A program made the translations under genes and the position numbers. DNA of 64,000 nt from an uncultured Saprospiraceae bacterium. Its GTDB lineage: Bacteria > Bacteroidota > Bacteroidia > Chitinophagales > Saprospiraceae. Location of the stretch: assembly GCA_937941095.1 (NCBI GenBank), contig CALDYJ010000064.1:1-64000 (forward strand), read 5' to 3'. This document shows positions 20,687-34,224 of the stretch, piece after piece. A model generated the notes under the pieces. It did not search any database and was not told the DNA's origin. It was given only the letters and a program-made list of their open reading frames with translations. How positions within the stretch are numbered: position 1 is the stretch's first letter; the number at the start of each line of letters is the position of its first letter.

Positions 20687-22468
20687 ATGTATAAAACACA
20701 TAATAACGGTGAATTGAGAATGGCTCATGTAGGCCAAGAAGTAACCTTGAGCGGATGGGTACAAACTATAAGAGATAAGGGATTCATGATGTGGATAGAC
20801 CTTAGAGATAGATTTGGCATCACTCAATTGATGTTTAACGAGGAAGTCAGTGATCCAGCTTTAATGGAAACGGCAAGACAATGTGGTAGAGAGTTTGTCA
20901 TCAAAGCTACAGGCAAGGTGATTGAAAGATCCTCTAAGTCAGATAAGATCGCTACAGGAGATGTAGAAATTCAAGTAACAAGTTTTGAAATTTTGAATGC
21001 TTCGAAAGTTCCTCCATTTACCATTGAAGATGAATCAGATGGGGGAGATGAAATAAGAATGAAATATAGGTATCTGGACATGAGAAGAAATCCAGTAAGA
21101 GAAAAAATCATTTTTAGATCCAACATGGCTCTTGAGATCAGGAAACATCTTATCGGTCAAAATTTTGTAGAAGTAGAGACACCTTGTTTGATTAAAAGTA
21201 CTCCTGAAGGAGCAAGAGATTTTGTAGTACCTAGTAGAATGAATCCAGGTCAGTTTTATGCATTACCTCAATCACCACAGACCTTTAAACAGATCTTAAT
21301 GGTTGCTGGAATGGAAAAATACTTTCAAATCGTAAAATGCTTTAGAGATGAAGACCTTCGGGCAGATAGGCAACCAGAATTTACACAGATAGATTGTGAA
21401 ATGGCTTTTGTCACCCAAGATGACATCCTAAATACTTTTGAAAGTCTAACAAAGCATTTATTCAAATCGATATTAGATATTGATTTGCCTGATTTTCCAA
21501 GGATGTTTTATGATGATGCAATGAAACTTTATGGTTCTGACAAACCTGATACGAGGTTCGGGATGGAATTTGTTGAGTTGACAGATGTTGCAAAGGACAA
21601 AGGTTTTGTTGTTTTTGATAATGCTGAATTGATTGTAGGGATATGTGCTGAAGGGCAGGTGGAAAAGTATTCTAATAAGGATATTAAAAAATTGACAGAG
21701 TGGATGCAAAGACCACAGATTGGTGCAAAAGGTTTGATATATGTGAAGTGCAATGCAGACGGAAGTTTTAAATCTTCTGTGGATAAGTTTTTTGATGCAG
21801 ATGCATTGAAAAATTGGGCAGAAAAATTTGGCGCTAAGCCAGGGGATATCATGTTCATATTAGCTGGTGAAGAAGAAAAGACGCGAAAGCAATTGAACGA
21901 ATTGAGGCTAGAGATGGGCGAGCGGATGGGACTAAGAGACCCAAAAGTATTTAAACCAATGTGGGTGGTAGATTTCCCATTGCTTGAATGGGATGAAGAG
22001 ACAAATCGATTCCATGCCATGCATCATCCTTTTACTTCTCCGAAGAAGGAGCAAATGGAGAGTATGTTAAATGGAGATCATGAAACAATGAAAGGGCTCA
22101 GAGCTGATGCTTATGACCTAGTAATAAATGGTGTAGAAATAGGTGGAGGTTCGATAAGAATTCATGACAGGGCACTTCAAGAAAAGAATTTTAAATTATT
22201 AGGATTCACTCCAGAAGAAGCTGAAGAACAATTTGGCTTTTTAATGGGAGCCTTTGAATATGGAGCACCACCACATGGTGGAATAGCTTTTGGTTTTGAT
22301 AGATTGTGTGCGGTTATGAATGGTGTGACTTCTATCAGAGACTTTATTGCTTTTCCAAAGAACAATCAAGGTAGAGACACCATGATTGATGCACCTTCTG
22401 CCATCCATGATGAACAGTATGAAGAATTGTATTTGAAGTCAACAGCAAGTGAAGAAGTTGTTTCTTAA
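20687..22468 (+). CDS. aspS: Aspartyl-tRNA synthetase
   Basis: A 593-residue class II synthetase that charges tRNA-Asp. The N-terminal OB-fold anticodon-binding domain ([21 protein letters not shown]) is followed by motif 2 ([18 protein letters not shown]) and motif 3 ([13 protein letters not shown]). The insertion between motifs 2 and 3 (the GAD domain) is present, as in bacterial-type AspRS. Length is standard. It is monocistronic: the next gene is convergent and its stop lies only 3 bp away. Bacterial-type AspRS is usually discriminating when GatCAB is absent; that cannot be judged here. Confidence 0.97.
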
Positions 22469-22471
22469 AAC

Positions 22472-24937
22472 TTAACCTTTTACAAAATCTTGATAATCCA
22501 AAAAGTAGATCAGCTTTATACTTAAGCTATTATTAATGGGCGAATCTCCTAATGAATTTAATGCAGCAGAGTAGTTTTGCTGTACGGTGTCAAAGGTGTC
22601 GTTATAAGAAATAATGTTGTTTTTCCAGATGATGAATATATCTGATCCTGGAGCAAAACGCCATCTATAAATCGCATCTATATTAAATGCATTGAAGCTA
22701 TTATCTGCATTTTCAGAATAATCCAAGTAAGCTAAACTTCCATCTTTTTGCAAAGTATAAAAATTGCTATACTTTGCTCTAGACCAATAATGTCTCGCCA
22801 CAAATGAAAAGGACATTTTGTTGTTAAAAATGTAAGTTGTATTTAATCTATTGGTCACGGAAGGAACATCTCTTTTTCCATAGACAACTTCATCATCATC
22901 CAGGGTGTCCACGTAACCAAAAAATCCATCAAGGACTTGATAGCTTGTACTCAATCTAAGTGTCCATTTGTTATTGAATCGATACCTTGGACGAATGCTT
23001 ATTTGTCTATATTTTGATCCATTTTCTGAAGCTAACCAAGCACCAATATTAAAATCAACCGCCAATTTTTTGCGATAATCAGTGGACACATTAAAACCCG
23101 CATTCAAGAATTTTGGAGTCTCAAAGAAGAGAGAAAAGTCTTCCGTTCTAGGGTCGAAATAGTCTTTTCCATTAAAAGGTTCGAAATAGGTCCAGACGCT
23201 AAAATTTATAAAGCTTTTTGTTCTAGCCCATGCCCAAAGGTTAACTCCAAAATCATTGAATTCATTTGGATCATAGAGTCTATTGTATCCGACAAACATT
23301 CCTGTTCCACCTTGTATGAATCTTCCTTTCCAAAAGGGTTTATAATGATTGAAATTTGCTTCTACGTCAATAGATCTTTCATTTGCAGATCTTAAAAATC
23401 CAAGGTCGTTTTTATCATAATTTTTAGATTCTTCTCCATAGTCTACAGCTATAATAAATTTTCCTCTTTTCTTGATGACTCCTATTTCATAAGCATGGCC
23501 AAAAGTGTTTTCTTCACTAAAATATTTTTGTGAAACTGCTCCTTCACCATACAAACCATAGTTTAAATCTTTTGTATTGATTTCAAATTCTGTACCCGTG
23601 ACATTGGCATCGTAAAAAATGCCGTTTCTCCAAACACTAGTGTTGATAAGAGAAACATAAGAATTGTTTTTTAAATTCTGATCTAAAACGAATACATTAT
23701 AATTGGTAAGAGGATCTGTAAGGTAGGTCCTTGCAGTGCCTTCTGAATTTTCAATGGTTGCGAAAGTCTCAGCAGATACAGCATTAAAAAATCCTACTCC
23801 GAGTCCTTTGGTGGTCCGACCTGATATTTTAGTCGCATTATAAAGTTGACTCATTCTTGGGTTTTCAATGATTTCTTCTCCATCTTTTAATTGATCTTCT
23901 ACTTCACCAAAATTTATTGGTGTCCCACCTACTCTTCGAGAATAAAAGAGATCTCCTTTATTAAACAGTTCTGTTCCTTCGGTAAAGAAAGGCCTGTTTT
24001 CATCAAACTCTACTTCAAAAGCAGAAAGGTTAAGTATTTGTTCATCGGAATTAGCTTCTCCAAAATCCGGGATTAAAGTCATATCTAAAGTGAAAGCATC
24101 ATTGATGCCATATTTCACATCCATTCCACCATTAAAAGATCTTCCCCAGATACTATTTGGCGAAGAAGTTTTATCGTATTGATTTTGCATGTAACCAGCG
24201 ATGAATGGTGTGGCAGATAATCTGACAGGTGATTTTACATTTTTAATGCCATTTAAGGTTCCATTTTGTTGCATCAAAGAAAGGATGTTAGGATCGACTT
24301 TATTCCAAAAACCCAATTCTCGAGTTCTTCTGATCGATCTACAAAAGTTAATGTTCCAATTTTGAAGATCTTTTTTTGGAAACCTAAGCGCTGAGAATGG
24401 AATTTTCATTTCTACAGTCCAAGATTGATTATCTATGTTTACTTCACTCTCCCAAACTGCATCCCAATTTGGGTCACCAGTCCCAAACGGATTAGTTCCT
24501 TTGTCATTGGCTGAATATTTACCATCAACTTGTACTCCTGACGCAAGAACCCCAAAACCGAGACCGTTTAGTCCATCTTGATAGGTGTCAATTACGAAAG
24601 CAAACCAATCAGAGTTTTGGACATTATCTCTTTCGGTAAGCTCTTTCAATATACTGTCAGGATGGGTATCAAATAGTTGAGCCCCTATATAAAGCGCTTT
24701 ATCATCGTATAAAACTTTAACTGACGTTTTTTGAGAAAGTGAGCCTTTAAATTCAGGTTCGGTTTTAGTGAAGCCAGAAGCTTCTGAAGCACTTAACCAA
24801 TCTTGTTCATTTAAAAGGCCGTCAATTTTTATGGCTCTTTCAACTTTTTGACAAACCAAGGTCTTTTTCTCCGATTCCTGTGCGAAAAGAAAAGCATTGA
24901 TAAAGCAAAAACTTATTATAGATAGAAGTATTTTCAT
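22472..24937 (-). CDS. DUF5916 outer-membrane protein with CBM9-like N-terminus
   Basis: An 821-residue protein with a signal peptide (IISFCFINAFLFAQ). Residues about 28-215 form a CBM9-like sugar-binding-type beta sandwich (IKIDGLLNEQDWLSASEASG, VKVLYDDKALYIGAQLFD), and the rest matches DUF5916, predicted to form an outer-membrane beta barrel. The family is frequent in marine Bacteroidota; its function is not established. No partner gene is adjacent. The gene meets aspS tail to tail with 3 bp between stops. Confidence 0.88.
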   Translation of the reverse strand: MKILLSIISFCFINAFLFAQESEKKTLVCQKVERAIKIDGLLNEQDWLSASEASGFTKTEPEFKGSLSQKTSVKVLYDDKALYIGAQLFDTHPDSILKELTERDNVQNSDWFAFVIDTYQDGLNGLGFGVLASGVQVDGKYSANDKGTNPFGTGDPNWDAVWESEVNIDNQSWTVEMKIPFSALRFPKKDLQNWNINFCRSIRRTRELGFWNKVDPNILSLMQQNGTLNGIKNVKSPVRLSATPFIAGYMQNQYDKTSSPNSIWGRSFNGGMDVKYGINDAFTLDMTLIPDFGEANSDEQILNLSAFEVEFDENRPFFTEGTELFNKGDLFYSRRVGGTPINFGEVEDQLKDGEEIIENPRMSQLYNATKISGRTTKGLGVGFFNAVSAETFATIENSEGTARTYLTDPLTNYNVFVLDQNLKNNSYVSLINTSVWRNGIFYDANVTGTEFEINTKDLNYGLYGEGAVSQKYFSEENTFGHAYEIGVIKKRGKFIIAVDYGEESKNYDKNDLGFLRSANERSIDVEANFNHYKPFWKGRFIQGGTGMFVGYNRLYDPNEFNDFGVNLWAWARTKSFINFSVWTYFEPFNGKDYFDPRTEDFSLFFETPKFLNAGFNVSTDYRKKLAVDFNIGAWLASENGSKYRQISIRPRYRFNNKWTLRLSTSYQVLDGFFGYVDTLDDDEVVYGKRDVPSVTNRLNTTYIFNNKMSFSFVARHYWSRAKYSNFYTLQKDGSLAYLDYSENADNSFNAFNIDAIYRWRFAPGSDIFIIWKNNIISYNDTFDTVQQNYSAALNSLGDSPINNSLSIKLIYFLDYQDFVKG

Positions 24938-25127
24938 TTATGCGGTCTATATAATAAACAATATTCGTAAATCTAGGAGTGGAAGTCCAATTTATTCGAC
25001 CAAATCACAATTCATTAACAAGTAAATTTGTTATATGATTATTTCCTTTAAAATGGAATATTGGCCATTCATTTTCGTAATTTTCAACCCTAATAGGGTG
25101 AAAAGAAAATTTGTAATTATTCAATAG

Positions 25128-28100
25128 GTGGAAGAACTCATTCCTTTCTTTATAACAGACAAGTTCAAATCTGAAAAGATGCATGGAAGTTTAACCGCTT
25201 ACACCATGTTTATTGACATTGTAGGTTTTACAAGCCTTACCGCCCGATTGCTTGAAAAAGGCAACATTGGGGCAGAAGAACTCTCTTTGATTTTAAATAA
25301 GATATTTGAACCCTTAGTGGATACCGTTTATAATAATGGAGGTTTTATTCCTTATTATGCAGGAGACGCTTTTTTAGCCATATTCGAAGATGAAGATGTC
25401 AATTCAGCTGAACAGTTTATGGATGCAGCATTAAGCATTCAACAATATTTTCAAGAAAATAAAAAAGCGACTGAAAACATAGAAATTAAAATCGGCATTT
25501 CTCATGGTAATTTAGATTGGGGAATTGTTGGTAATGGTTTTTACTCTTATTTTTTTAATGGATTTCCTATTACAAAATGTGCTTATGCTCAGAGTTTAGC
25601 TAAGGGTGGGGAGATTGTGATGGATGAAAAGTTGTTTGTAAAATTTCCATTTGTAGACATAGAAGAAATTGGTAAAACAGGTTTTGTAAAAATAAATTCC
25701 ACCAAAAAAATTCTTCAATCTGTTCCTAAAGAAGGTATTGAGATAAGTGATAGAAGCAAGCTAAAAAAGTTTTTACCAGAACAAATCTTAGTACCCAATT
25801 TGATTGGAGAGTTCAGGACTGTAGTTTCTGTATTTATTTCGTTTACTGGCTTGCGAAGCTATGATGAACTAAATGCTTTTGCCACAAAGGCTTTAACTTT
25901 ATCTAAAAATTTTGCTGCCTATTTTAAAGAAATTGATTTTAGTGATAAGGGTGGAGTAATAGTTGTCCTTTTTGGTGCGCCTGTTTCATTCGAACACATC
26001 ATAGATCGAGCCTTAGAGTTTATTAACTCTTTAAAAGAAGAATTGAGAGGTACGCCAATAGGAGAAAAGGTAAATTACAAAGCAGGCATGAGCAGTGGCA
26101 AATCCTTTACTGGAATGATAGGAGGTAGAAGAAAAAAGCAATACGCTGCATTAGGGAATAAAGTTAACATTGCTGCTAGATTAATGAGTAAAGCCAATTG
26201 GGGAGAAGTCTTAGTCGATGAAGTTATCAGTAGAAGTAAAGCCTTCAGCTTTACTAAAAAAGGCGAGATTCGGTATAAAGGGCTTGACTATAAAATTCCA
26301 ACGTACATTCTTGAACAAAGAAACGAAGAAATAAACCTTTTCGAAGGAAAGTTTATAGGAAGAAGTGCAGAAGTTGAAAAGCTAAATAAGTTTATTGTTA
26401 ATTCATTAAAAGAAAGTGAATCAGGAGGAGTAGTCAATGTATTTGGTGAAGCAGGAGTAGGTAAAAGCAGATTGTTGCATGAAGTGTTTCTAAAGCAAAA
26501 GAAAAACGCCAACACTCAGTGGATTATCTGCCAAGCGGATCAAATACTAAGAAAAGCATTTAATCCGCTTATATACTTTTTAAGAATTAAACTAAAACAA
26601 AATAATAGCAATTCTAAAAAGGAAAATTTAAGATTACTCAATGAAGAATTAGACAAAATTATTGAGAGTGCTGAAGAAAATGTTGCAAAAGAATTGACAA
26701 GAACAAAGTCGGTTATAGCAGGCTTGCTTGGAATAAAAATAAAAAACAGCTTGTGGCAGGAATTAGATGCTCGAGGAAGGTTTAATAATTCGATCAGTTC
26801 GATTAGTAATCTTTTTATCGCTTTGTCGCATCAAAAGCCTTTGATCATAGAAGTAGAAGACGGGCATTGGTTTGATGAAAGTACGATTGCTTTTTTGAGA
26901 AAGTTTATTCTCCAAATGAGAAAACATCCTATGGTAATGGTACTCACTTCAAGGTATCTGGATAATGGTTCTAAACCAAAGTACCTGACAGCTGAGCTGA
27001 TTCAAGATGCAGATCTTTATTATGAAGAAATAGACCTCAATCTTTTAGATAAGTCCAATTTAAAAGAATATGCGGAGCATAAATTAGAAGGTAGCCTTAG
27101 TCAAACTTTTTTAAACCTTTTATACAGAACTACTAACGGTAATCCATTTTACCTAGAACAAATATTAGAATACTTTACTGAAAGTGAAATCCTAAAGAAG
27201 GAAAATAATGTTTGGACGATTAAAGACGAGAGCATTAAGTTAAGTGATTCAATGAATGCCATCCTGATGGCTAGAGTAGATCGATTATCTGAGCTTGTAA
27301 AAGAAACTGTAAAAACAGCTGCAGTTATAGGGAGAGAGTTTGAAGTGCCAATATTACATGAGGTAATGAAATCTAACCAATCTTTTGATTCTCCTACAAC
27401 AGATTCAAAAAATCATTTGGATGAACAAATTAAATCTGCTGAGAAGTTTCAGATTTGGAAAGCTGTTAATGAATTGAAATATATTTTTAGACATTCATTG
27501 CTGCGAGAGACTGTTTATGAAATGCAGCTTAGTAGTAGATTGAAGGAGTTGCATGGTTATATAGGAACGGCGATAGAGGTTTTATATAAAAATGAAATAG
27601 AAAGTAAATACGAAGAACTCTCTTTTCATTTTGACCATGCCGGAGATTCTAAAAAAGCTTTATCGTATTCTAGAAAAGCCGCAGATGTAGCTAGAAATAA
27701 TTATCAAAATAAAAAAGCACTAAGTTTATATGAAAAGGCTCTGGTATATTTAGATAAAGATAAAAAGCCCAACGTTTACATTAAAGTACTTTTGCGACAA
27801 GCAGAGATTTTGGAGCTCATTGGTGAATGGGAACAAAGTATAGCTACTCTAAAGATAGCGGTATCTTTTTTAGAAAAAAAGGAAGACTCCTTAATGCTAG
27901 GAAGAACTTTAAATCAATTAGGCAAGATTTACAACTTAAAAGGAGATTACGGAAGTTCAATAAAAGAACTGATGAGGGCAATGAATATTTTTTCTGATTT
28001 AGATGATGATCTTGGACTTTTTAAATCTTATGGTAACCTTGGAGACTTATACTTTAGACAAGCAGACTATGGTCAAGCAAAAGAATACTTTTTAAAAAGT

Positions 28101-29093
28101 ATTTCTTTAGCAAAGGAGTTTAAAAAATCTTTTACAGTTACGCAGATAGTTTCAAACCTTGGTCTAACTTACATGAATCAATCTGAATATGAAAAGGGGA
28201 TTCAGTGTCAATTAGAACAATTAGAAGTTTGTAAAGAAATAGGAGATAGAAACGGAAGAGCAATTTTGAATACAAATTTAGGAATTGTTTATGCAGAGAA
28301 AGGAGAACTCAATAAAGCAATGGAGTACTTTGAAACAGGACTGGCATTAAGTGAAGAATTAGGAAACAAACAAATGAAAGCGATTGCCTTAGGCAGTATT
28401 GGCTCTATTCACGAATCATTTGGTGCCTACGATAAAGCTTTGGAACTTTTTGAGATTGATTTAAAACTGTGCAAAGAACTTGGAGATAAAAGAGGAATCT
28501 GTATAGTACATGGTTTGTTAGGAGAGTTGCTTTTGGCAAAAGGAAAATTTGGAGAATCTAAACTTCATCTTGATCAGCAATTAAAGATTTCAAAGGAATT
28601 AAATTATCAAAAAGGCATCACAAAAGCTTTAATTTCTTTAGCAGACCTAAACCTCTTTTTATCAGAACATAATCAAGCGGAAAAGCATTTAAAAGAAGCT
28701 GTTTTCATCTCAGAAGAAATTAATTATCAACCTTCATTAGAGTTAGCCTTGGACAAACTGTTTGATCTCTATTTAAGTCAAGATGTAGTTCCTCAAGCAA
28801 AGCTAATCATTGATAAAAGGAAAAAAGTTTCTTCAAAAGATGATTTTCATTGCATGCTTTTTGAAGCTAGATTGGCAAAAGCAAAAGGAGAACTCCCCAA
28901 AGCCCTCCATGTTTTGGAAGAATTGAGTAAACGAGATCTCAAAACGATAGAAGCTTCGGAGCTGTATTATTTCTATGCAGGCATAAAACCCAAGCTTAAA
29001 GAAAAAGCTGTCTACTTCTTAAATGAGGCTTATAATAAAACACCTCACTACTCCATCAAACAAAAACTCAATTTATTAGAAAATGAGGTTTAA
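25128..29093 (+). CDS. Class III adenylyl cyclase, tandem cyclase-NTPase-TPR (soluble-AC-like)
   Basis: A 1321-residue cytoplasmic protein. Cyclase domain 1 (about 20-210) carries both metal-binding Asp residues: D30 in MFIDIVGFT and D80 in YYAGDAFLAIF. Cyclase domain 2 (about 230-410) lacks them but keeps the transition-state pair Asn347 and Arg351 in GNKVNIAARL. A P-loop NTPase of the STAND/AAA type follows (Walker A GEAGVGKS at 440-447; DDGHWFDEST-like box EDGHWFDEST), then about ten TPRs (about 820-1300). The order C1-C2-NTPase-TPR and the split active site are those of mammalian soluble adenylyl cyclase. It would make cAMP in response to an internal signal read by the NTPase/TPR part. 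The start is a GTG; the ATG at 25179 would cut the N-terminal motif. It overlaps the next gene by 11 bp. Confidence 0.88.
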   Translation: MEELIPFFITDKFKSEKMHGSLTAYTMFIDIVGFTSLTARLLEKGNIGAEELSLILNKIFEPLVDTVYNNGGFIPYYAGDAFLAIFEDEDVNSAEQFMDAALSIQQYFQENKKATENIEIKIGISHGNLDWGIVGNGFYSYFFNGFPITKCAYAQSLAKGGEIVMDEKLFVKFPFVDIEEIGKTGFVKINSTKKILQSVPKEGIEISDRSKLKKFLPEQILVPNLIGEFRTVVSVFISFTGLRSYDELNAFATKALTLSKNFAAYFKEIDFSDKGGVIVVLFGAPVSFEHIIDRALEFINSLKEELRGTPIGEKVNYKAGMSSGKSFTGMIGGRRKKQYAALGNKVNIAARLMSKANWGEVLVDEVISRSKAFSFTKKGEIRYKGLDYKIPTYILEQRNEEINLFEGKFIGRSAEVEKLNKFIVNSLKESESGGVVNVFGEAGVGKSRLLHEVFLKQKKNANTQWIICQADQILRKAFNPLIYFLRIKLKQNNSNSKKENLRLLNEELDKIIESAEENVAKELTRTKSVIAGLLGIKIKNSLWQELDARGRFNNSISSISNLFIALSHQKPLIIEVEDGHWFDESTIAFLRKFILQMRKHPMVMVLTSRYLDNGSKPKYLTAELIQDADLYYEEIDLNLLDKSNLKEYAEHKLEGSLSQTFLNLLYRTTNGNPFYLEQILEYFTESEILKKENNVWTIKDESIKLSDSMNAILMARVDRLSELVKETVKTAAVIGREFEVPILHEVMKSNQSFDSPTTDSKNHLDEQIKSAEKFQIWKAVNELKYIFRHSLLRETVYEMQLSSRLKELHGYIGTAIEVLYKNEIESKYEELSFHFDHAGDSKKALSYSRKAADVARNNYQNKKALSLYEKALVYLDKDKKPNVYIKVLLRQAEILELIGEWEQSIATLKIAVSFLEKKEDSLMLGRTLNQLGKIYNLKGDYGSSIKELMRAMNIFSDLDDDLGLFKSYGNLGDLYFRQADYGQAKEYFLKSISLAKEFKKSFTVTQIVSNLGLTYMNQSEYEKGIQCQLEQLEVCKEIGDRNGRAILNTNLGIVYAEKGELNKAMEYFETGLALSEELGNKQMKAIALGSIGSIHESFGAYDKALELFEIDLKLCKELGDKRGICIVHGLLGELLLAKGKFGESKLHLDQQLKISKELNYQKGITKALISLADLNLFLSEHNQAEKHLKEAVFISEEINYQPSLELALDKLFDLYLSQDVVPQAKLIIDKRKKVSSKDDFHCMLFEARLAKAKGELPKALHVLEELSKRDLKTIEASELYYFYAGIKPKLKEKAVYFLNEAYNKTPHYSIKQKLNLLENEV

Positions 29094-29997
29094 TCAAGCA
29101 ATAATTTTACTACTGCTTCTTTGGATTTGTTCTTGTAAATCTGGAAGTCGATTAAAAGATGCTAATCAAAAAAAGATAATTGATTTTCCTTACGAACTTG
29201 AAGCTTCAAAGATTTTTAAATTGCCTTCGGAATTACAAGAAATTTCTGGTTTAAGTTTATCCGAAGATCAAAAATACTTGCTTGCTGTACAGGATGAAAA
29301 TGGAATTATCTATTACCTAGATAAAAACACAGGTGAGCTTATTAAAAAATTGGACTTTAAAATCGATGGTGATTACGAGGGAGTTTGCTATAATGATGGT
29401 CTTTGCTATGTTTTAAAAAGCTCGGGTACAATCTACGAAATAGACCTAGCCGATAAAGAATTAGCCGTAAAAAAACATAAAGGATTATTAGAGAAAACAA
29501 CTGATCACGAAGGCATTACTTTTGACAAAATGAAAAACAAGTTTGTCGTCTGTTGCAAGGATAGCGAAGGCTTAGGAGAGCAATATAAAAATACAAGATT
29601 TATTTATTCCCTCGATCTCCAGAAAAGAACCAAAGAAGTATTTTTTACTTTATCAAGACGAGAAGTGATTGAATATTTAAGAAGTTCTTGTTCTTCGGAA
29701 GAAATAGAAGAAGATCATGACAAGATCTTCGATATGAAAAGAGATTATTTGCATGCAGGGCCTTCCGGTATCTGCATCCATCCAATAAATGGCCTTGTTT
29801 ATACCATTTGCTCTAAAGGTAAATATATGTTCATCTGTACCAGAAAAGGAGAAATTAAAAAGGTTATTAAATTTGATAAAAGTATACTGCCTCAACCTGA
29901 AGGCATCGTCATTGATGTGGATGGTACCATGTACATTTCCAGTGAAAATGAAAAAGGAGGCGAAGGTATTTTAAGTGTTTATCCAATGAAACAATAA
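29083..29997 (+). CDS. SdiA-regulated-type beta-propeller lipoprotein
   Basis: A 304-residue predicted lipoprotein: hydrophobic N-terminus ending ICSC with Cys18. The body (LPSELQEISGLSLSEDQKYLLAVQDENGIIYYLD, DYEGVCYN, DHEGITFD, PSGICIHPINGLVYTIC, QPEGIVIDVDGTMYISSE) has the repeating EGI/EGV and PSGI elements of the SdiA-regulated (esterase-like phytase-type) propeller family. Function in this family is not settled; binding of a ligand or metal at the propeller centre is inferred. Its ATG lies 11 bp inside the cyclase gene, so the two are translationally coupled. It is convergent with the next gene at 4 bp. Confidence 0.8.
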   Translation: MRFNQAIILLLLLWICSCKSGSRLKDANQKKIIDFPYELEASKIFKLPSELQEISGLSLSEDQKYLLAVQDENGIIYYLDKNTGELIKKLDFKIDGDYEGVCYNDGLCYVLKSSGTIYEIDLADKELAVKKHKGLLEKTTDHEGITFDKMKNKFVVCCKDSEGLGEQYKNTRFIYSLDLQKRTKEVFFTLSRREVIEYLRSSCSSEEIEEDHDKIFDMKRDYLHAGPSGICIHPINGLVYTICSKGKYMFICTRKGEIKKVIKFDKSILPQPEGIVIDVDGTMYISSENEKGGEGILSVYPMKQ

Positions 29998-30001
29998 GAG
30001 G

Positions 30002-33000
30002 TTAAAAATCCACGCCTAAAGAAAAATGTAATCTTGGATCTTGTATTTGCTTGGTTTCTATTCCCCAGCCATAATCTAATCTTACAAAATACCCAAACAA
30101 GATGCATCTCATTCCAACACCATATCCAGCAACAATTGGATCTCTATAGTAATTTACCCTAACGACAACAGGGTTTCCTTCACTTGCAATGGTTACAATG
30201 TTTAACGGATTGTCTGCGCGAAAAGGATTAGCTCCATGCCATGCTGTACCAACATCAAAGAAGCCCATCAATTGGAAGTTTCGTAAAAAATTAGACCTCA
30301 AGTTCTTACGAGAAAAATACCGAAATATTGGCACTCTTAATTCAGCATTTAACAAAGCAATAGAATTACCATTTCTAATATTTTGTGAGAATCCTCTGAT
30401 GTTTGTGCCTACCGTTTGATAAGCAAATTCACCTGAAGGAGGAATTGGGATTTCGTTATTAAAATCTGCAAACAACCAATTGTTAGTTCCTCCTAAATAG
30501 TTTAAAATCTTCTCAGATCCAAAAGAAGTTGATCCTGCTAACCTCGCTGCAAAGATTGAATGTCTATCAAGTCTTTGGTAATGTCTTGCATCAAAACCAA
30601 GGATGGTCATAATGCCTTCGCCAGTTTCAAAAGCAAACTTATCGTCATAAGATAGACTAAATCGTTTTACTAATTCACCATATATTTTATAGCGTGTTCC
30701 GTTTTTAATGTTCACAGAGATGTCCATGGTGTTATCAAAAACATACTCTAATCGAAAGCCTGCTCTTTGTTGGTTTGCATTAGGGATGGAAAGCGAATTT
30801 GCATCAGTAGCTAATTCTGTCACACGATCATTTCTGATGGTAGCTCTTGCACGTAAGCTGGTAAAGATGTCCAATGGCCATCTAAATTCAGCTTGGCCGA
30901 GCATGGTGATAAATTCTGTTTTTAATTGAATGATGCCACTGTTATCTGTTTCTCTTCTGACTTTTCGATATAGCGCATAGCGCTTATCCATTCTTGTTTT
31001 CTTATCATCGAAAAGCAAAAAATATTCTGCACCATTAAAAGTAGTAGGTACTCTTACACCTGCTTCAAAAACATAGTCTTCAAAGAGGTCTTTAAAGTTA
31101 GTTTTTAAAAGTATACCAGGTGGTTGGTAGCTGTATTCATTTCCTAAACCTGAATAAGACTCTAGTCCTTCGAAAAGTAATTCATTGTCTAACTTGGTTG
31201 TTAAGAAATCCGTTCTGAATTTTACACGATAAGGAACAATTCTTCCAGGTTTAAATTTTAAAACTTTTGGTTCTTCATCTTCTAAACTTTCTGTCACAGC
31301 TTCTTTCAATGATATTTCACCACTCTCTTCATCAATTTCAACAAGAGGTGTTTCTTCAAGTTCATCAAATTCACTTTGGAAGGTATAATTGTCAATGTCC
31401 ACTTCAGTAGAGTCTACCATTGGTTTTACCTCTTCTTTTAAAACTGGATCCAAGACACTACCTGTATCTTGATTAGAATCTAAGTCAAGCGCTTCTTGCA
31501 TATTTAATTGCATGAAAACAGTAGGGCTAGTACTTGTCTTTGTCTCTGGATCATAAGCATTTACAAAAAGTTTATGCTGTCCGTTTATAATTGCCCAATC
31601 CACTACTTTTCCATTTGCAAGGTTATGCGTTTTTATGTTTCTGTTTAGATTGGTATTGAAATGGTTGACAGCTCTTTTTTTATAAACAGGTCTCAGTTTA
31701 TTACTTACTATCAAAGAGTCTGCTACATCTACTAAGGTAGAATCTTCGTGTATAATTATTTCGGTTCCATCTTTAAGTTTAATCAATTGCTCTCTATAAG
31801 CTAAATACTCTTCCAAAAAACCACTTGCACGATTACGTACCCCATTTTCATCTGATAAAAATGAAAACCATTTTTCATCATGTGCAATAGGATTGCTTTC
31901 ACTTGCATATGGTGTATTTGTGATTCTGACCAAGTCCTCACCTGTTTCATCTAAATTCATATAAAAGATGTCCATGTTTTCTAAAGGCAGTAAAGTGTCC
32001 ATTTTGACTTTCTCAAGGACAACGGATTGTCTATTAGAAGCAAAGAGGACGCCCCTTTGTCCATCTAAATTAACAACATTGACATCTAGGTCATCGTAAT
32101 AATCTTGCGTGATTCTTTTGGTTTGTCTATTTAGGGTTTGGTAAACAAACAGATCTGAATAGCCAAGGACTATGGCAGAAAAAACTAAGTCTGTATTGTT
32201 TAAATAGTCCATGCTCAATACACGAGTGTATTGCGGATCAAGATCTTCGGTGTAAGTTTGTTTTGTACTTAAGTTGTAATTTAAAAATTTAGCGATGTCT
32301 CTTTTTTCATATAAAATCGACAGTTCTTCACCATTTGGTTTCCAAGCTAAAAGCGGATAATCATAATCAGTTTCTTGAAAAGGATTTCTAAAACTTCCCT
32401 TAAAGATCATCTCATTTTTATCTGTCGCCAAGTCATAAAGGAATACTTTGTACTTTCCGATTTCATTAACGACGTAGGAAAGGTAATTTCCATCTGGGCT
32501 TAGTTTGATGTTTGTATAGGGTATATTTCTTTTGTTTTTGATGGCTAATGCACCTTCGGTCAAAGGTTGTCTGGACTCTTCGTCTTTTAGGTATCTGCTC
32601 AAATAAAAACCTTTCCATTCCTTTAGGGTTCTTTCATAAGAATTACCTAGGACGTATAAAAACCCACTTTCAATGCTTCGGTTTATTCTTGTTAAATACA
32701 GTAAATTTGATACAGTGGATTTTCCATAATTTTGACTCAAGTAAAACCACATAGAATGCCCAATCAAAGCTGGATATTGTTCTACCAGTTCATCAAAATT
32801 TTTAAAATCTTCGTTTAAGAGCGCGTCTTTTAATCGATTATCTAATTCACTGTTCCATTCTTCTCCCACAAAAGAAACCAGCCCTTGTTTAAACCATTCC
32901 GGAAGGTTCATCATGACAGCATTTTGCACTATCTCTTGAAGGTTTGACCCAAACAGCATAGAGTTTAAGTAGACAGATGCTATCCCTTGTCTTATTTGTT

Positions 33001-33409
33001 TCCGCAAATGTTTATGATCGCCATTGAAATAGATAAAGACCTTGTTACCTACGATCTTAGTCTGACCAATCACATTCATGAATACTTCTTCGCTTCCAAT
33101 ATTTGATTGTTTGAGATCTGTAATGTCCCCATAGACGATTAGCTCTATCTTATCATTGATTCTATGCTCTAGGGTATTTTGAATGGCGTCATGATCAAGT
33201 TCGGCAATTTGGACAGCTGCTTGCCCAACGTTTCTAGCCTTACCATACCAATAGGTTATGAAGTTAGGCGTTTCATATTGAAGCCAATTATCAAAGTCAT
33301 CATGAAACTGAATCCTGTTTTTACCAAATTTTGTGTCTGTGTTTTGAGCAGACAGGCTCAAAGCAAAAAAGAAGAAGAAAAAATAGAGCGGTAAAAATCT
33401 AAGGTTCAT
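30002..33409 (-). CDS. Three-part outer-membrane protein: peptidase-MA-like, PD40 propeller, beta barrel
   Basis: 1135 residues with a signal peptide that contains six Phe in a row and ends LSAQ. Residues about 25-270 resemble a peptidase-MA-like gluzincin domain (NFITYWYGKARNVGQ, LPEWFKQGLVSF), but at the place of HExxH the sequence reads RKQIRQGIASVYL, so no zinc site. Residues about 290-560 contain TolB/PD40-type propeller repeats (NIKLSPDGNYLSYVV, YDYPLLAWKPNGEELSILY). An acidic, probably flexible linker (about 650-725) leads to a C-terminal beta barrel of BamA/surface-antigen style (about 740-1135), ending in LHFSLGVDF. The function is unknown; an outer-membrane channel with a large periplasmic or surface sensor is an inference. 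Confidence 0.75.
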   Translation of the reverse strand: MNLRFLPLYFFFFFFALSLSAQNTDTKFGKNRIQFHDDFDNWLQYETPNFITYWYGKARNVGQAAVQIAELDHDAIQNTLEHRINDKIELIVYGDITDLKQSNIGSEEVFMNVIGQTKIVGNKVFIYFNGDHKHLRKQIRQGIASVYLNSMLFGSNLQEIVQNAVMMNLPEWFKQGLVSFVGEEWNSELDNRLKDALLNEDFKNFDELVEQYPALIGHSMWFYLSQNYGKSTVSNLLYLTRINRSIESGFLYVLGNSYERTLKEWKGFYLSRYLKDEESRQPLTEGALAIKNKRNIPYTNIKLSPDGNYLSYVVNEIGKYKVFLYDLATDKNEMIFKGSFRNPFQETDYDYPLLAWKPNGEELSILYEKRDIAKFLNYNLSTKQTYTEDLDPQYTRVLSMDYLNNTDLVFSAIVLGYSDLFVYQTLNRQTKRITQDYYDDLDVNVVNLDGQRGVLFASNRQSVVLEKVKMDTLLPLENMDIFYMNLDETGEDLVRITNTPYASESNPIAHDEKWFSFLSDENGVRNRASGFLEEYLAYREQLIKLKDGTEIIIHEDSTLVDVADSLIVSNKLRPVYKKRAVNHFNTNLNRNIKTHNLANGKVVDWAIINGQHKLFVNAYDPETKTSTSPTVFMQLNMQEALDLDSNQDTGSVLDPVLKEEVKPMVDSTEVDIDNYTFQSEFDELEETPLVEIDEESGEISLKEAVTESLEDEEPKVLKFKPGRIVPYRVKFRTDFLTTKLDNELLFEGLESYSGLGNEYSYQPPGILLKTNFKDLFEDYVFEAGVRVPTTFNGAEYFLLFDDKKTRMDKRYALYRKVRRETDNSGIIQLKTEFITMLGQAEFRWPLDIFTSLRARATIRNDRVTELATDANSLSIPNANQQRAGFRLEYVFDNTMDISVNIKNGTRYKIYGELVKRFSLSYDDKFAFETGEGIMTILGFDARHYQRLDRHSIFAARLAGSTSFGSEKILNYLGGTNNWLFADFNNEIPIPPSGEFAYQTVGTNIRGFSQNIRNGNSIALLNAELRVPIFRYFSRKNLRSNFLRNFQLMGFFDVGTAWHGANPFRADNPLNIVTIASEGNPVVVRVNYYRDPIVAGYGVGMRCILFGYFVRLDYGWGIETKQIQDPRLHFSLGVDF

Positions 33410-33576
33410 GCGATATAGTTTATTTTTGCTTCATTACTTATTATTGATATTCCTTATATATTTAGCATAAATTCAATGCCAAACTTCGATTTTTCAAGGG
33501 GCTTTGGCTTATTTTGTCAAAAAAAATATATATCCTTGAAAATCAATGAGAATATATTAAAAATAACGTTGATTTT

Positions 33577-34224
33577 ATGTCGGTTGTTGTAGATTTTAGC
33601 TTTAATCCTTTTCAGGAAAACACTTATTTGGTATACGATGAAACTAAAGAATGTGTTATCATCGATCCAGGATGTTATACTGCCTTAGAAAGAAAGGAGC
33701 TTGACGATTATATCGTCAAACACGAATTGAAGCCAGTTCTGCTCCTGAACACCCATTGTCACTTGGATCATATTTTTGGAAATAAGCATGTTGCGGAAAC
33801 TTATGGGTTGAAATTAGAAATTCATAAAGGAGAGCTTCCTGTCTTAAAAGCGGCTCCTCAGGTAGCAGCTATGTATGGAGTACCAATGCCGGATGAATCT
33901 CCTATGCCCGAATCTTTTATTGATGAAAACGATACCATTGAATTCGGCAATACAAGTTTTGAAATATTTTTCACACCTGGACATTCACCTGCTAGTATTT
34001 CTTTTTATAATAAAAAAGAGGCCTACATCATTGGAGGTGATGTATTGTTTTTAGGAAGCATAGGTCGAACTGATTTGCCAGGTGGAAATTTCGAAACGCT
34101 TATCCGAAGTATAAAAACTCATTTTCTGAGTTTGCCTGCTCAAACTAAAGTTTATTCTGGGCATGGTGGACCAACTACAGTTGGGTTTGAAGCGATGAAT
34201 AATCCGTTTTTGCAAGGCGATTAA
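33577..34224 (+). CDS. Metallo-beta-lactamase-fold hydrolase (glyoxalase II-like)
   Basis: A 215-residue cytoplasmic enzyme. Metal ligands are plain: His60, His62, Asp64 and His65 in THCHLDH, a further His in TPGHSPASIS, Asp in GGDVLF and His in YSGHGGPTTVG. The compact length and these motifs fit the glyoxalase II-like branch that hydrolyses thioesters such as S-lactoyl-glutathione analogues; the precise substrate is not decided by sequence. It stands alone on the plus strand, with its stop one base from that of the convergent WG-repeat gene. Confidence 0.9.
   Translation: MSVVVDFSFNPFQENTYLVYDETKECVIIDPGCYTALERKELDDYIVKHELKPVLLLNTHCHLDHIFGNKHVAETYGLKLEIHKGELPVLKAAPQVAAMYGVPMPDESPMPESFIDENDTIEFGNTSFEIFFTPGHSPASISFYNKKEAYIIGGDVLFLGSIGRTDLPGGNFETLIRSIKTHFLSLPAQTKVYSGHGGPTTVGFEAMNNPFLQGD

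Follow-up and report, generated by a model that had tools for sequence, protein, structure and literature searches.

The open reading frame at positions 25128-29093 on the forward strand of the window, the stretch of 64,000 nucleotides from an uncultured Saprospiraceae bacterium analyzed here, encodes a 1321-residue class III cyclase of the lineage of animal soluble adenylyl cyclase (sAC). The C1-C2 core of this cyclase and that of animal sAC descend from one ancestor. In the reading we favor, to which we assign a probability of about 0.5, the protein would be a soluble cyclase of sAC descent that is gated by a STAND-type NTPase with tetratricopeptide repeats (TPRs), accepts GTP more likely than ATP, and is not switched by bicarbonate through the positions of Lys95 and Arg176 of sAC. 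Fold, partition of the active site, ancestry, and residue conservation were established computationally, and the protein is probably catalytically active.

Domain layout and the NTPase/TPR part

The frame opens with a GTG codon, a start that fits the homologues: the protein begins V-E-E-L-I-P, as compared with their consensus M-x-H-L-I-P. Pfam matches and motif positions confirm the order C1-C2-P-loop NTPase-TPR over 1321 residues that the first-pass annotation had proposed. The C1 cyclase domain (residues 1-200, 25128..25727, +) carries D30, D80, the phosphate lysine K121, Y76, and A152, while the C2 cyclase domain (residues 216-404, 25773..26339, +) contains N347/R351, a DKG hairpin at 273-275, E268 (with D270), and A340, and is devoid of the metal aspartates. 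Guanylate_cyc (PF00211) matches two stretches of the protein with an E-value of 2.3e-23, the best being residues 289-396. The cyclase domains are followed by an AAA_16 P-loop NTPase (residues 408-603, 26349..26936, +; E 6.8e-14) with Walker A motif GEAGVGKS at 440-447 and a Walker B-like pair, E577 and D578, and by a TPR region of approximately residues 887-1269 (27786..28934, +), where TPR_12 matches with an E-value of 2.7e-34 and other TPR models reach residue 1269. When solved structures were searched by sequence, human sAC was the best match (E 1.8e-17), in two stretches, one per half; for the TPR part, an engineered TPR protein came out on top, followed by Pins and GPSM2.

For conservation analysis, we used a set of 69 proteins including the cyclase of the window, in which no pair is more than 90% identical. 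Within the NTPase, K446 and a Ser or Thr at position 447 are found in 69/69, E577 in 66/69, and D578 in 67/69. Walker A and Walker B motifs succeeded by a repeat region, here the TPRs, suggest that it belongs to the STAND NTPases. Most likely, this C-terminal part would gate the cyclase, with the TPRs serving as a detector: a ligand binding to them would switch the nucleotide-bound NTPase, thus freeing the cyclase. A 960-residue model that includes the NTPase reached a pTM of only 0.46, too low to place the contact between NTPase and cyclase; a fold search with it returned the sAC result again and was uninformative for the NTPase. Full-length sAC is described as containing an autoinhibitory region, a STAND P-loop, and a predicted heme domain in the consulted portion of PMC12802110, a portion in which neither 'TPR' nor 'tetratricopeptide' occurs.

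Fold, split active site, and ancestry

An AlphaFold model of residues 1-412 (pLDDT 84.2, pTM 0.83) shows C1 and C2 packed as a pseudo-heterodimer, as the proposed comparison with human sAC (ADCY10) had anticipated. Superposed on human sAC as one unit, it yields a Z-score of 40.2 for 395 residues at 2.9 Å, covering the model range 1-401. In a Foldseek search, human sAC takes all of the first 24 places (TMq 0.79-0.82), with AC9 next. Such packing is, however, common to tmACs, for which Z reaches 37.2 (the best AC9 entry in the VIA comparison, over 363 residues), and since the sAC entries 4oyz (Z 37.0) and 4cll (Z 36.9) score slightly below that entry, fold similarity sets sAC apart from tmACs only modestly. 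Beneath the two-domain cyclases, the VIA list holds class III cyclases only, and absence from it excludes nothing.

Together with the cyclase fold, the presence of both a metal Asp pair and an Asn/Arg pair identifies the protein as a class III nucleotidyl cyclase. These residues lie at the positions given in the first-pass annotation and are divided between the halves as it had claimed. D30, D80, N347, R351, and K446 are invariant (69/69 proteins), which chance does not explain, and the position of K121 is occupied by Lys in 62, Arg in 6, and Gly in 1. The counterparts of the metal aspartates in C2, S238 and G276 in the window's protein, are Asp in 0/69, and those of the Asn/Arg pair in C1, here T149 and Y153, vary, with Asn in 8/69 and Arg in 4/69. 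This division implies a single catalytic site, the other being a dead pseudo-site: C1 would bring in both metal aspartates together with the phosphate lysine, and C2 the Asn/Arg pair together with the residues that contact the purine. A joint active site of the sAC kind, also proposed earlier, is thus borne out by predicted fold, phylogeny, and residue conservation.

In a tree that leaves out the C1 and C2 rows of tmACs and contains long branches, human sAC-C1 groups with 19 bacterial C1 rows and human sAC-C2 with 19 C2 rows from bacteria (100/99 for each), both apart from the single-domain cyclases; the sAC-type clustering looked for in the phylogeny is therefore present for both halves. The same groupings received 100/99 and 100/97 in a second tree of the same scope, to which CyaB and OaPAC had been added and from which L082 had been removed because of its long branch; L115, which is close to L114, was left out of both. 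As C1 goes with sAC-C1 and C2 with sAC-C2, the tandem must be older than the split between the bacterial proteins and sAC. A private duplication giving rise to C1 and C2 fits worse (p-AU 0.016, in a test named after the first tree had been seen). The tree is able to reveal such an event, since the C1 and C2 of one protein, L080, pair with each other in the first tree (100/99), which also points to more than one origin of tandem cyclases with an NTPase match. With C2 alone as a query, other class III cyclases precede sAC, which appears at row 21 with an E-value of 2.5e-4. Roelofs and Van Haastert reportedly discussed the origin of sAC in 2002.

The bacterial cyclase therefore resembles ADCY10 (PDB 4clf and others) in its C1-C2 tandem with a single active site, in the metal Asp residues in C1, the Asn/Arg pair and DKG hairpin in C2, and the phosphate lysine (K121/K144), in the P-loop region behind the core, and in the ancestry that C1 and C2 each share with their counterparts. 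In contrast to ADCY10, it lacks K95 and R176 and has E268/A340 instead of K334/T405.

Purine pocket, bicarbonate switch, and competing explanations

The purine-binding pair of sAC, Lys334 and Thr405, is absent from the window's protein, where the corresponding residues are E268 and A340. The first position is Glu in 67/69 proteins and Lys in 0/69, and the second is Ala in 63/69 and Thr in 2/69. The C2 counterpart of the lysine is E268 by sAC numbering or D270 by hairpin count (the latter position being Asp in 64 and Glu in 4 of the 69 proteins), both of which are acidic. E268/A340 matches the pattern of guanylyl cyclases, Glu followed by C, S, T, H, A, or G (PMC4215837), in an alignment-based assignment that could be off by one strand rung. 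In eight distant tandem rows outside the group with Glu, the first position is Lys in 3, Gln in 3, Leu in 1, and Asn in 1, and the second is Thr in 7 and Ala in 1, so that the Glu-Ala combination looks derived in this family. An acidic and a small residue at the purine-contact positions make GTP a likelier substrate than ATP; from these residues, we put the substrate of the predicted cyclase at roughly 50% GTP, 35% ATP, and 15% other or dual. The earlier assumption of cAMP as the default product is thereby left without support. That the protein is a bacterial guanylyl cyclase on the whole C1-C2-STAND-TPR plan, with a remodeled purine pocket and no bicarbonate switch, present in roughly half of its host family's genomes, is a tentative proposal that we rate just short of an even chance.

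Animal sACs produce cAMP, and an sAC-lineage adenylyl cyclase with an altered purine pocket, regulated by its NTPase/TPR part and making cAMP, is a possible reading, to which we give about one chance in three. The Thr at the second purine position in 7 of the 8 distant tandem rows and the 10 matches to cNMP-binding domains in the host genome are in keeping with it, as is the behavior of Ma1120, in which Lys-to-Glu alone does not make a guanylyl cyclase: K101E/D157G still prefers ATP, and kcat/Km for ATP is 0.82 for K101E and 1.92 for K101E/D157G, near the wild-type value of 1.25 (PMC4215837). However, the near-fixed E268 and A340 are a pair of the type reported in guanylyl cyclases, and six of the eight other cyclase domains of the host genome already have, on visual inspection, the K...D pattern typical of ordinary adenylyl cyclases, which makes a remodeled additional source of cAMP slightly less parsimonious. 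A bicarbonate- or pH-sensing sAC, the former of which the first-pass annotation had suggested, would be consistent with the common core fold and ancestry, and the consulted part of PMC12867704 describes non-mammalian sACs that respond to pH although they lack the human bicarbonate pair, so other residues might mediate a response to pH here. The position of K95 is never Lys, being Tyr in 59, His in 5, Cys in 3, Leu in 1, and Asn in 1 of the 69 proteins (Y76 in the window's protein), and that of R176 is Arg in 0/69 (A152 in the window's protein); in the same part of that source, the authors associate the loss of Lys95 or Arg176 with non-mammalian sACs being insensitive to bicarbonate. We therefore reject the sAC switch as a route of bicarbonate sensing; the cyclase would not be gated through K95/R176, and sensing of bicarbonate or pH is altogether improbable.

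Equally improbable is a catalytically dead nucleotide-binding scaffold. The Pseudomonas tandem cyclase-like ATP-binding protein (6yii), which is reportedly inactive, is found among the fold matches (Z 25.6), but invariance of D30, D80, N347, and R351 would be unexpected for a dead enzyme. Still more improbable is a cyclase acting on pyrimidine nucleotides or serving anti-phage defense (Pycsar-like), to which two observations might point: the gene is patchily distributed, with roughly half of the genomes in the family having it, and PycC models in PADLOC match weakly (best E 5.1e-7, residues 23-136). These matches span generic cyclase parts, the neighboring genes encode DUF5916 and beta-propeller proteins with no effector among their Pfam names, and PADLOC found nothing at E 0.001 in the beta-propeller protein, the one neighbor scanned. 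Given the weak PycC matches and no effector among these names, we disfavor this candidate.

Among known systems, the preferred reading of a GTP-leaning cyclase of sAC descent finds parallels in the soluble guanylyl cyclase (sGC) of Dictyostelium, which according to the consulted part of PMC11988041 has two catalytic domains and resembles mammalian sAC in its structure, and in XC_0250 of Xanthomonas, a class III cyclase with TPRs and Ala at a substrate-specifying position that produces cGMP and no cAMP. In the window's protein the second purine position is Ala, whereas a Dictyostelium guanylyl cyclase, which one being unstated, has His there (PMC4215837); XC_0250 differs in its single cyclase domain, its length of 886 residues, and the Leu and Ala that replace the Asn/Arg pair (all as given in the consulted part of PMC3770947). 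Tandem cyclase-NTPase proteins also occur in other bacteria; one of them, WP_002741124.1 from Leptospira borgpetersenii plasmid lbp2, matches in C1, C2, and NTPase (83% query coverage, E 3e-76), but is 26.5% identical and carries Leu at the first purine position and Thr at the second. The TOMM system kinase/cyclase fusion family (TIGR03903) matches residues 297-877 (E 4.3e-50), yet its score of 170.6 bits falls below the cut-off of 705.75, and the kinase domain in the family's name has no Pfam match in the bacterial cyclase.

Occurrence, gene neighborhood, and significance

Of 150 host-family genomes, 73 contain a match to the cyclase, and 11 relatives in named records comprise 9 Saprospiraceae and 2 Chitinophagales. 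At order level, 22/198 genomes match at E<=1e-15, 18 from the host family and 4 from family f61. Wide occurrence in the phylum was considered and rejected: 44/296 genomes match at E<=1e-6, yet clear orthologues (E 1e-92 or better) are confined to the genome itself, G028, and G006, and the remaining matches, none better than E 9.5e-15, are mostly limited to one domain. Two partial relatives, L016 and L017, the latter with a frame broken in its MAG, were left out of the 69-protein count. Five viral stretches matched a pattern, and none of the five encodes a relative. A literature search under Saprospiraceae or Bacteroidetes retrieved no report of the cyclase family, although such reports may exist.

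Directly downstream, overlapping the cyclase stop by 11 nt, lies the gene for a 304-residue SdiA-regulated-type beta-propeller protein (29083..29997, +), which is the downstream neighbor in 13/40 family loci; a DUF5916/CBM9-like gene (22472..24937, -) is divergently transcribed from the cyclase and is its immediate upstream neighbor in 12/40. The Pfam names of six proteins in 20687-34224 include no cNMP receptor or phosphodiesterase. Elsewhere in the host genome, 9 of the 10 cNMP-binding matches lie above the cut-off, and the cyclase may signal to these proteins.

Few prokaryotic guanylyl cyclases are known (PMC4215837). Full-length human sAC long resisted work in vitro and was purified in a 2025 study, the consulted part of which reports that no ligand was found for the STAND P-loop part (PMC12802110). 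As a bacterial protein related to sAC by descent, and with its NTPase and TPR part conserved, the cyclase could serve as a model of how this part controls the core, and its fixed Glu-Ala pocket opens the question of ATP or GTP to direct experimental test. If the guanylyl cyclase reading is true, there would be cGMP signaling in Bacteroidota from an enzyme of the sAC lineage, parallel to the Dictyostelium sGC, and the sAC tandem core would have existed in bacteria and been adapted to GTP there on at least one occasion.

Gene layout and predicted fold

The cyclase gene (25128-29093, + strand) encodes 1321 residues from a GTG start that is consistent with its homologues, and Pfam assigns to the product two cyclase stretches, an AAA_16 NTPase and TPRs. 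D30, D80, N347 and R351, the residues named in the first-pass annotation, lie at exactly these positions in the translated ORF. When solved structures were searched with the whole protein sequence, human soluble adenylyl cyclase (sAC; ADCY10) was the best match (E 1.8e-17, in two stretches), and it also came first for C1 alone (E 1.8e-11). For C2 alone, sAC (E 2.5e-4) was preceded by 20 other rows, including 1yk9, a soluble guanylyl cyclase, CyaB and AC8, a ranking at odds with a simple reading.

An AlphaFold model of the cyclase core, built with 11 sequences, reached a pLDDT of 84.2 and a pTM of 0.83. The top 24 Foldseek matches to this model were human sAC (TMq 0.79-0.82), with AC9 next. In VIA, the best sAC entry scored Z 40.2 (2.9 Å, 395 residues) and the best AC9 entry Z 37.2 over 363 residues, with two sAC entries slightly lower (37.0 and 36.9). 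The proposed packing of C1 and C2 as a pseudo-heterodimer is thus borne out in the predicted structure, which superposes on human sAC (Z 40.2). Because the AC9 score is close to that of sAC, the fold alone separates sAC from transmembrane cyclases (tmACs) only modestly, and the claim of descent rests on the tree.

Descent and distribution

Of the 62 rows in the tree, 20 were single-domain cyclases; the others were the two domains, C1 and C2, of 21 tandem proteins that included human sAC. Rows of tmACs were left out. Human sAC-C1 groups with 19 of the 20 bacterial C1 rows and sAC-C2 with 19 of the 20 bacterial C2 rows, each with support of 100/99, in a tree with long branches (that of human sAC included), a bootstrap not fully settled and an unsure position of sAC inside each clade. 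A second tree, without L082 but with CyaB and OaPAC, gave 100/99 for C1 and 100/97 for C2. A constraint that kept the C1 rows and C2 rows from 14 family proteins in one group, a set chosen once the first tree was known, cost 50.8 log units (p-AU 0.016). The expected sAC-type clustering therefore appears in both trees, tmAC rows being absent, and by descent the protein is a class III cyclase of the sAC lineage. Bacterial relatives of sAC were already known, as excerpts of PMC3085406 place sAC nearer to cyanobacterial cyclases than to tmACs.

The exception in both clades is L080 (G425:C169), an ORF of 1359 aa with an NTPase match, whose C1 and C2 pair with each other (100/99), apart from those of sAC; this pairing marks a separate origin of a tandem plan. 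L082 (G269:C96), a long-branched ORF of 1328 aa whose purine positions hold Q and T, adjoins human sAC in C1 (84/88) as well as in C2 (99/86).

All 11 relatives in named records, with titles of Saprospiraceae (9) or Chitinophagales (2), are metagenome-assembled, the best at 62% identity. The window's own genome (86% complete) contains one full match to the cyclase protein; 8 further matches fall between residues 837 and 1199 of the query, largely within the TPRs. In the host family, 73 of 150 genomes (own counted) match at E<=1e-10, with a single match each, and 69 of the 73 have an open frame of 1160-1403 aa, that in G096, G011, G126 and G019 being shorter or cut. One relative, L017, has the gene in two frames in its MAG (306 + 1100 aa), through assembly error or decay. 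The order-level search found matches in 22 of 198 genomes, 18 of the host family and 4 of family f61; at phylum level, 44 of 296 genomes match at E<=1e-6, of which 3, each from the host family, have clear orthologues. Family f61 (rows L109 and L113-L115) holds a second tandem-cyclase type of the order, which has K or Q at the first purine position and T at the other, and genome G477 carries an example of each type, L113 of the second and L109 of the E type. Among 262 plasmid records matching at E<=1e-10, just one has a placement that spans 80% or more of the query, Leptospira borgpetersenii plasmid lbp2 (83% covered, 26.5% identity, E 3e-76); its protein, L111, is a tandem cyclase-NTPase of the same kind.

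Catalytic site, purine pocket and bicarbonate residues

Residues were compared in an alignment of 69 proteins including that of the window (no pair more than 90% identical, two partial proteins left out), with roles assigned after Table 1 of PMC12867704. No substitution occurs at D30, D80, N347, R351 or Walker K446; K121 (sAC K144) is K in 62, R in 6 and G in 1, and D273, K274 and G275 (sAC 339-341) are each conserved in 68. None of the 69 has Asp at the two metal positions of C2, and the C1 positions of the Asn/Arg pair are variable. A single catalytic site between C1 and C2 is most likely.

Whereas ADCY10-type sAC has a K/T purine pair, the window cyclase has E268 and A340 at the positions of K334 and T405; across the alignment the first is E in 67 proteins and N or Q in one each, and the second is A in 63, V or T in two each, and N or S in one each. 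Eight distant rows of tandem proteins that lie outside the E group, of which L110 (same gene as L117) and L090 also belong to the 69, have K or Q (three each) or L or N (one each) at the first position and T (seven) or A (one) at the second; with no E at the first position and mostly T at the second, they make the E-A pair look derived in the window clade. In guanylyl cyclases, E replaces K and the second position is C, S, T, H, A or G (PMC4215837), and the bacterial guanylyl cyclase XC_0250, in excerpts of PMC3770947, likewise has Ala at a substrate-specifying position. Counting against a GTP reading, the Ma1120 E-G double mutant retained its preference for ATP (PMC4215837). In sAC, according to Table 1 of PMC12867704, the stretch of the hairpin that precedes the loop is longer in C2 than in C1, so that counting from the loop makes D270, not E268, the lysine counterpart; as D270 is mostly acidic too (D 64, E 4, T 1), the purine-lysine position is acidic under either assignment. 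The cAMP synthesis first proposed by analogy with sAC is thus not supported by this guanylyl-cyclase-type E/A pair, and a shift of purine selection to a GTP-type pair is most likely.

The own genome has 10 PF00211 matches, two of them in the gene at 25128-29093. By eye, six of the other eight show EKIKTIGD and [YF]D[VIL]WGD, the K...D pattern of ordinary adenylyl cyclases, in which we take K and D to be the purine residues. PF00027 (cNMP binding) has 10 matches, 9 above cut-off.

ADCY10-type sAC differs further in having K95 and R176, present in none of the 69 proteins: at K95 there is Y in 59, H in 5, C in 3 and L or N in one each, and at R176 there is A in 52, T in 5, S or V in 4 each, G in 2 and N or P in one each. 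Arg176 is described as the switch residue of human sAC in excerpts of PMC12250328, and bicarbonate insensitivity of two non-mammalian sACs was linked to loss of K95 or R176 (PMC12867704). The residues thus argue against an sAC-like bicarbonate response, which the first-pass annotation had suggested; a pH response through other residues is possible. Lacking both the bicarbonate residues and the K/T pair, the window cyclase should not be named a bicarbonate-regulated sAC. The literature searched contained no report of the present clade, which combines the whole C1-C2-NTPase-TPR plan with a guanylyl-cyclase-type pocket.

Adjoining genes and proposed control by the NTPase/TPR part

An SdiA-regulated-type beta-propeller gene (29083-29997, + strand, 304 aa) overlaps the cyclase stop by 11 nt. 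Its product, with the lipoprotein-signal-like N-terminus MRFNQAIILLLLLWIC (read from the DNA), looks like a putative exported partner whose own gene begins within the end of the cyclase gene. Directly upstream lies a divergent DUF5916 gene (Pfam). Among 40 host-family loci with flanks, some of them on the same contigs as the named-record relatives, 12 have a divergent DUF5916 gene no more than 700 bp upstream and 13 a propeller gene downstream, with less than 700 bp of upstream flank in 2 loci and less than 600 bp of downstream flank in 3; the neighbourhood is suggestive but varies between loci. At 30002-33409 (- strand), a protein of 1135 aa without Pfam match resembles the Omp85 family weakly in its C-terminal end; a counterpart (69% identity) also lies near the cyclase gene of the closest relative, L010.

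Control of the cyclase would most likely be exerted by the conserved P-loop NTPase together with the TPR part as detector. Against solved structures, the TPR part matched an engineered TPR protein best, followed by Pins and GPSM2, a likeness that suggests a protein or peptide as the TPR ligand. A 960-residue model had a pTM of 0.46 and so gives no reliable contact between cyclase and NTPase parts. According to excerpts of PMC12802110, an isoform-specific regulator of sAC was not found, and full-length sAC, which includes the P-loop part, has a specific activity about three-fold below that of the short isoform; by analogy with this lower activity, an inhibitory role of the P-loop part in the window cyclase is plausible.
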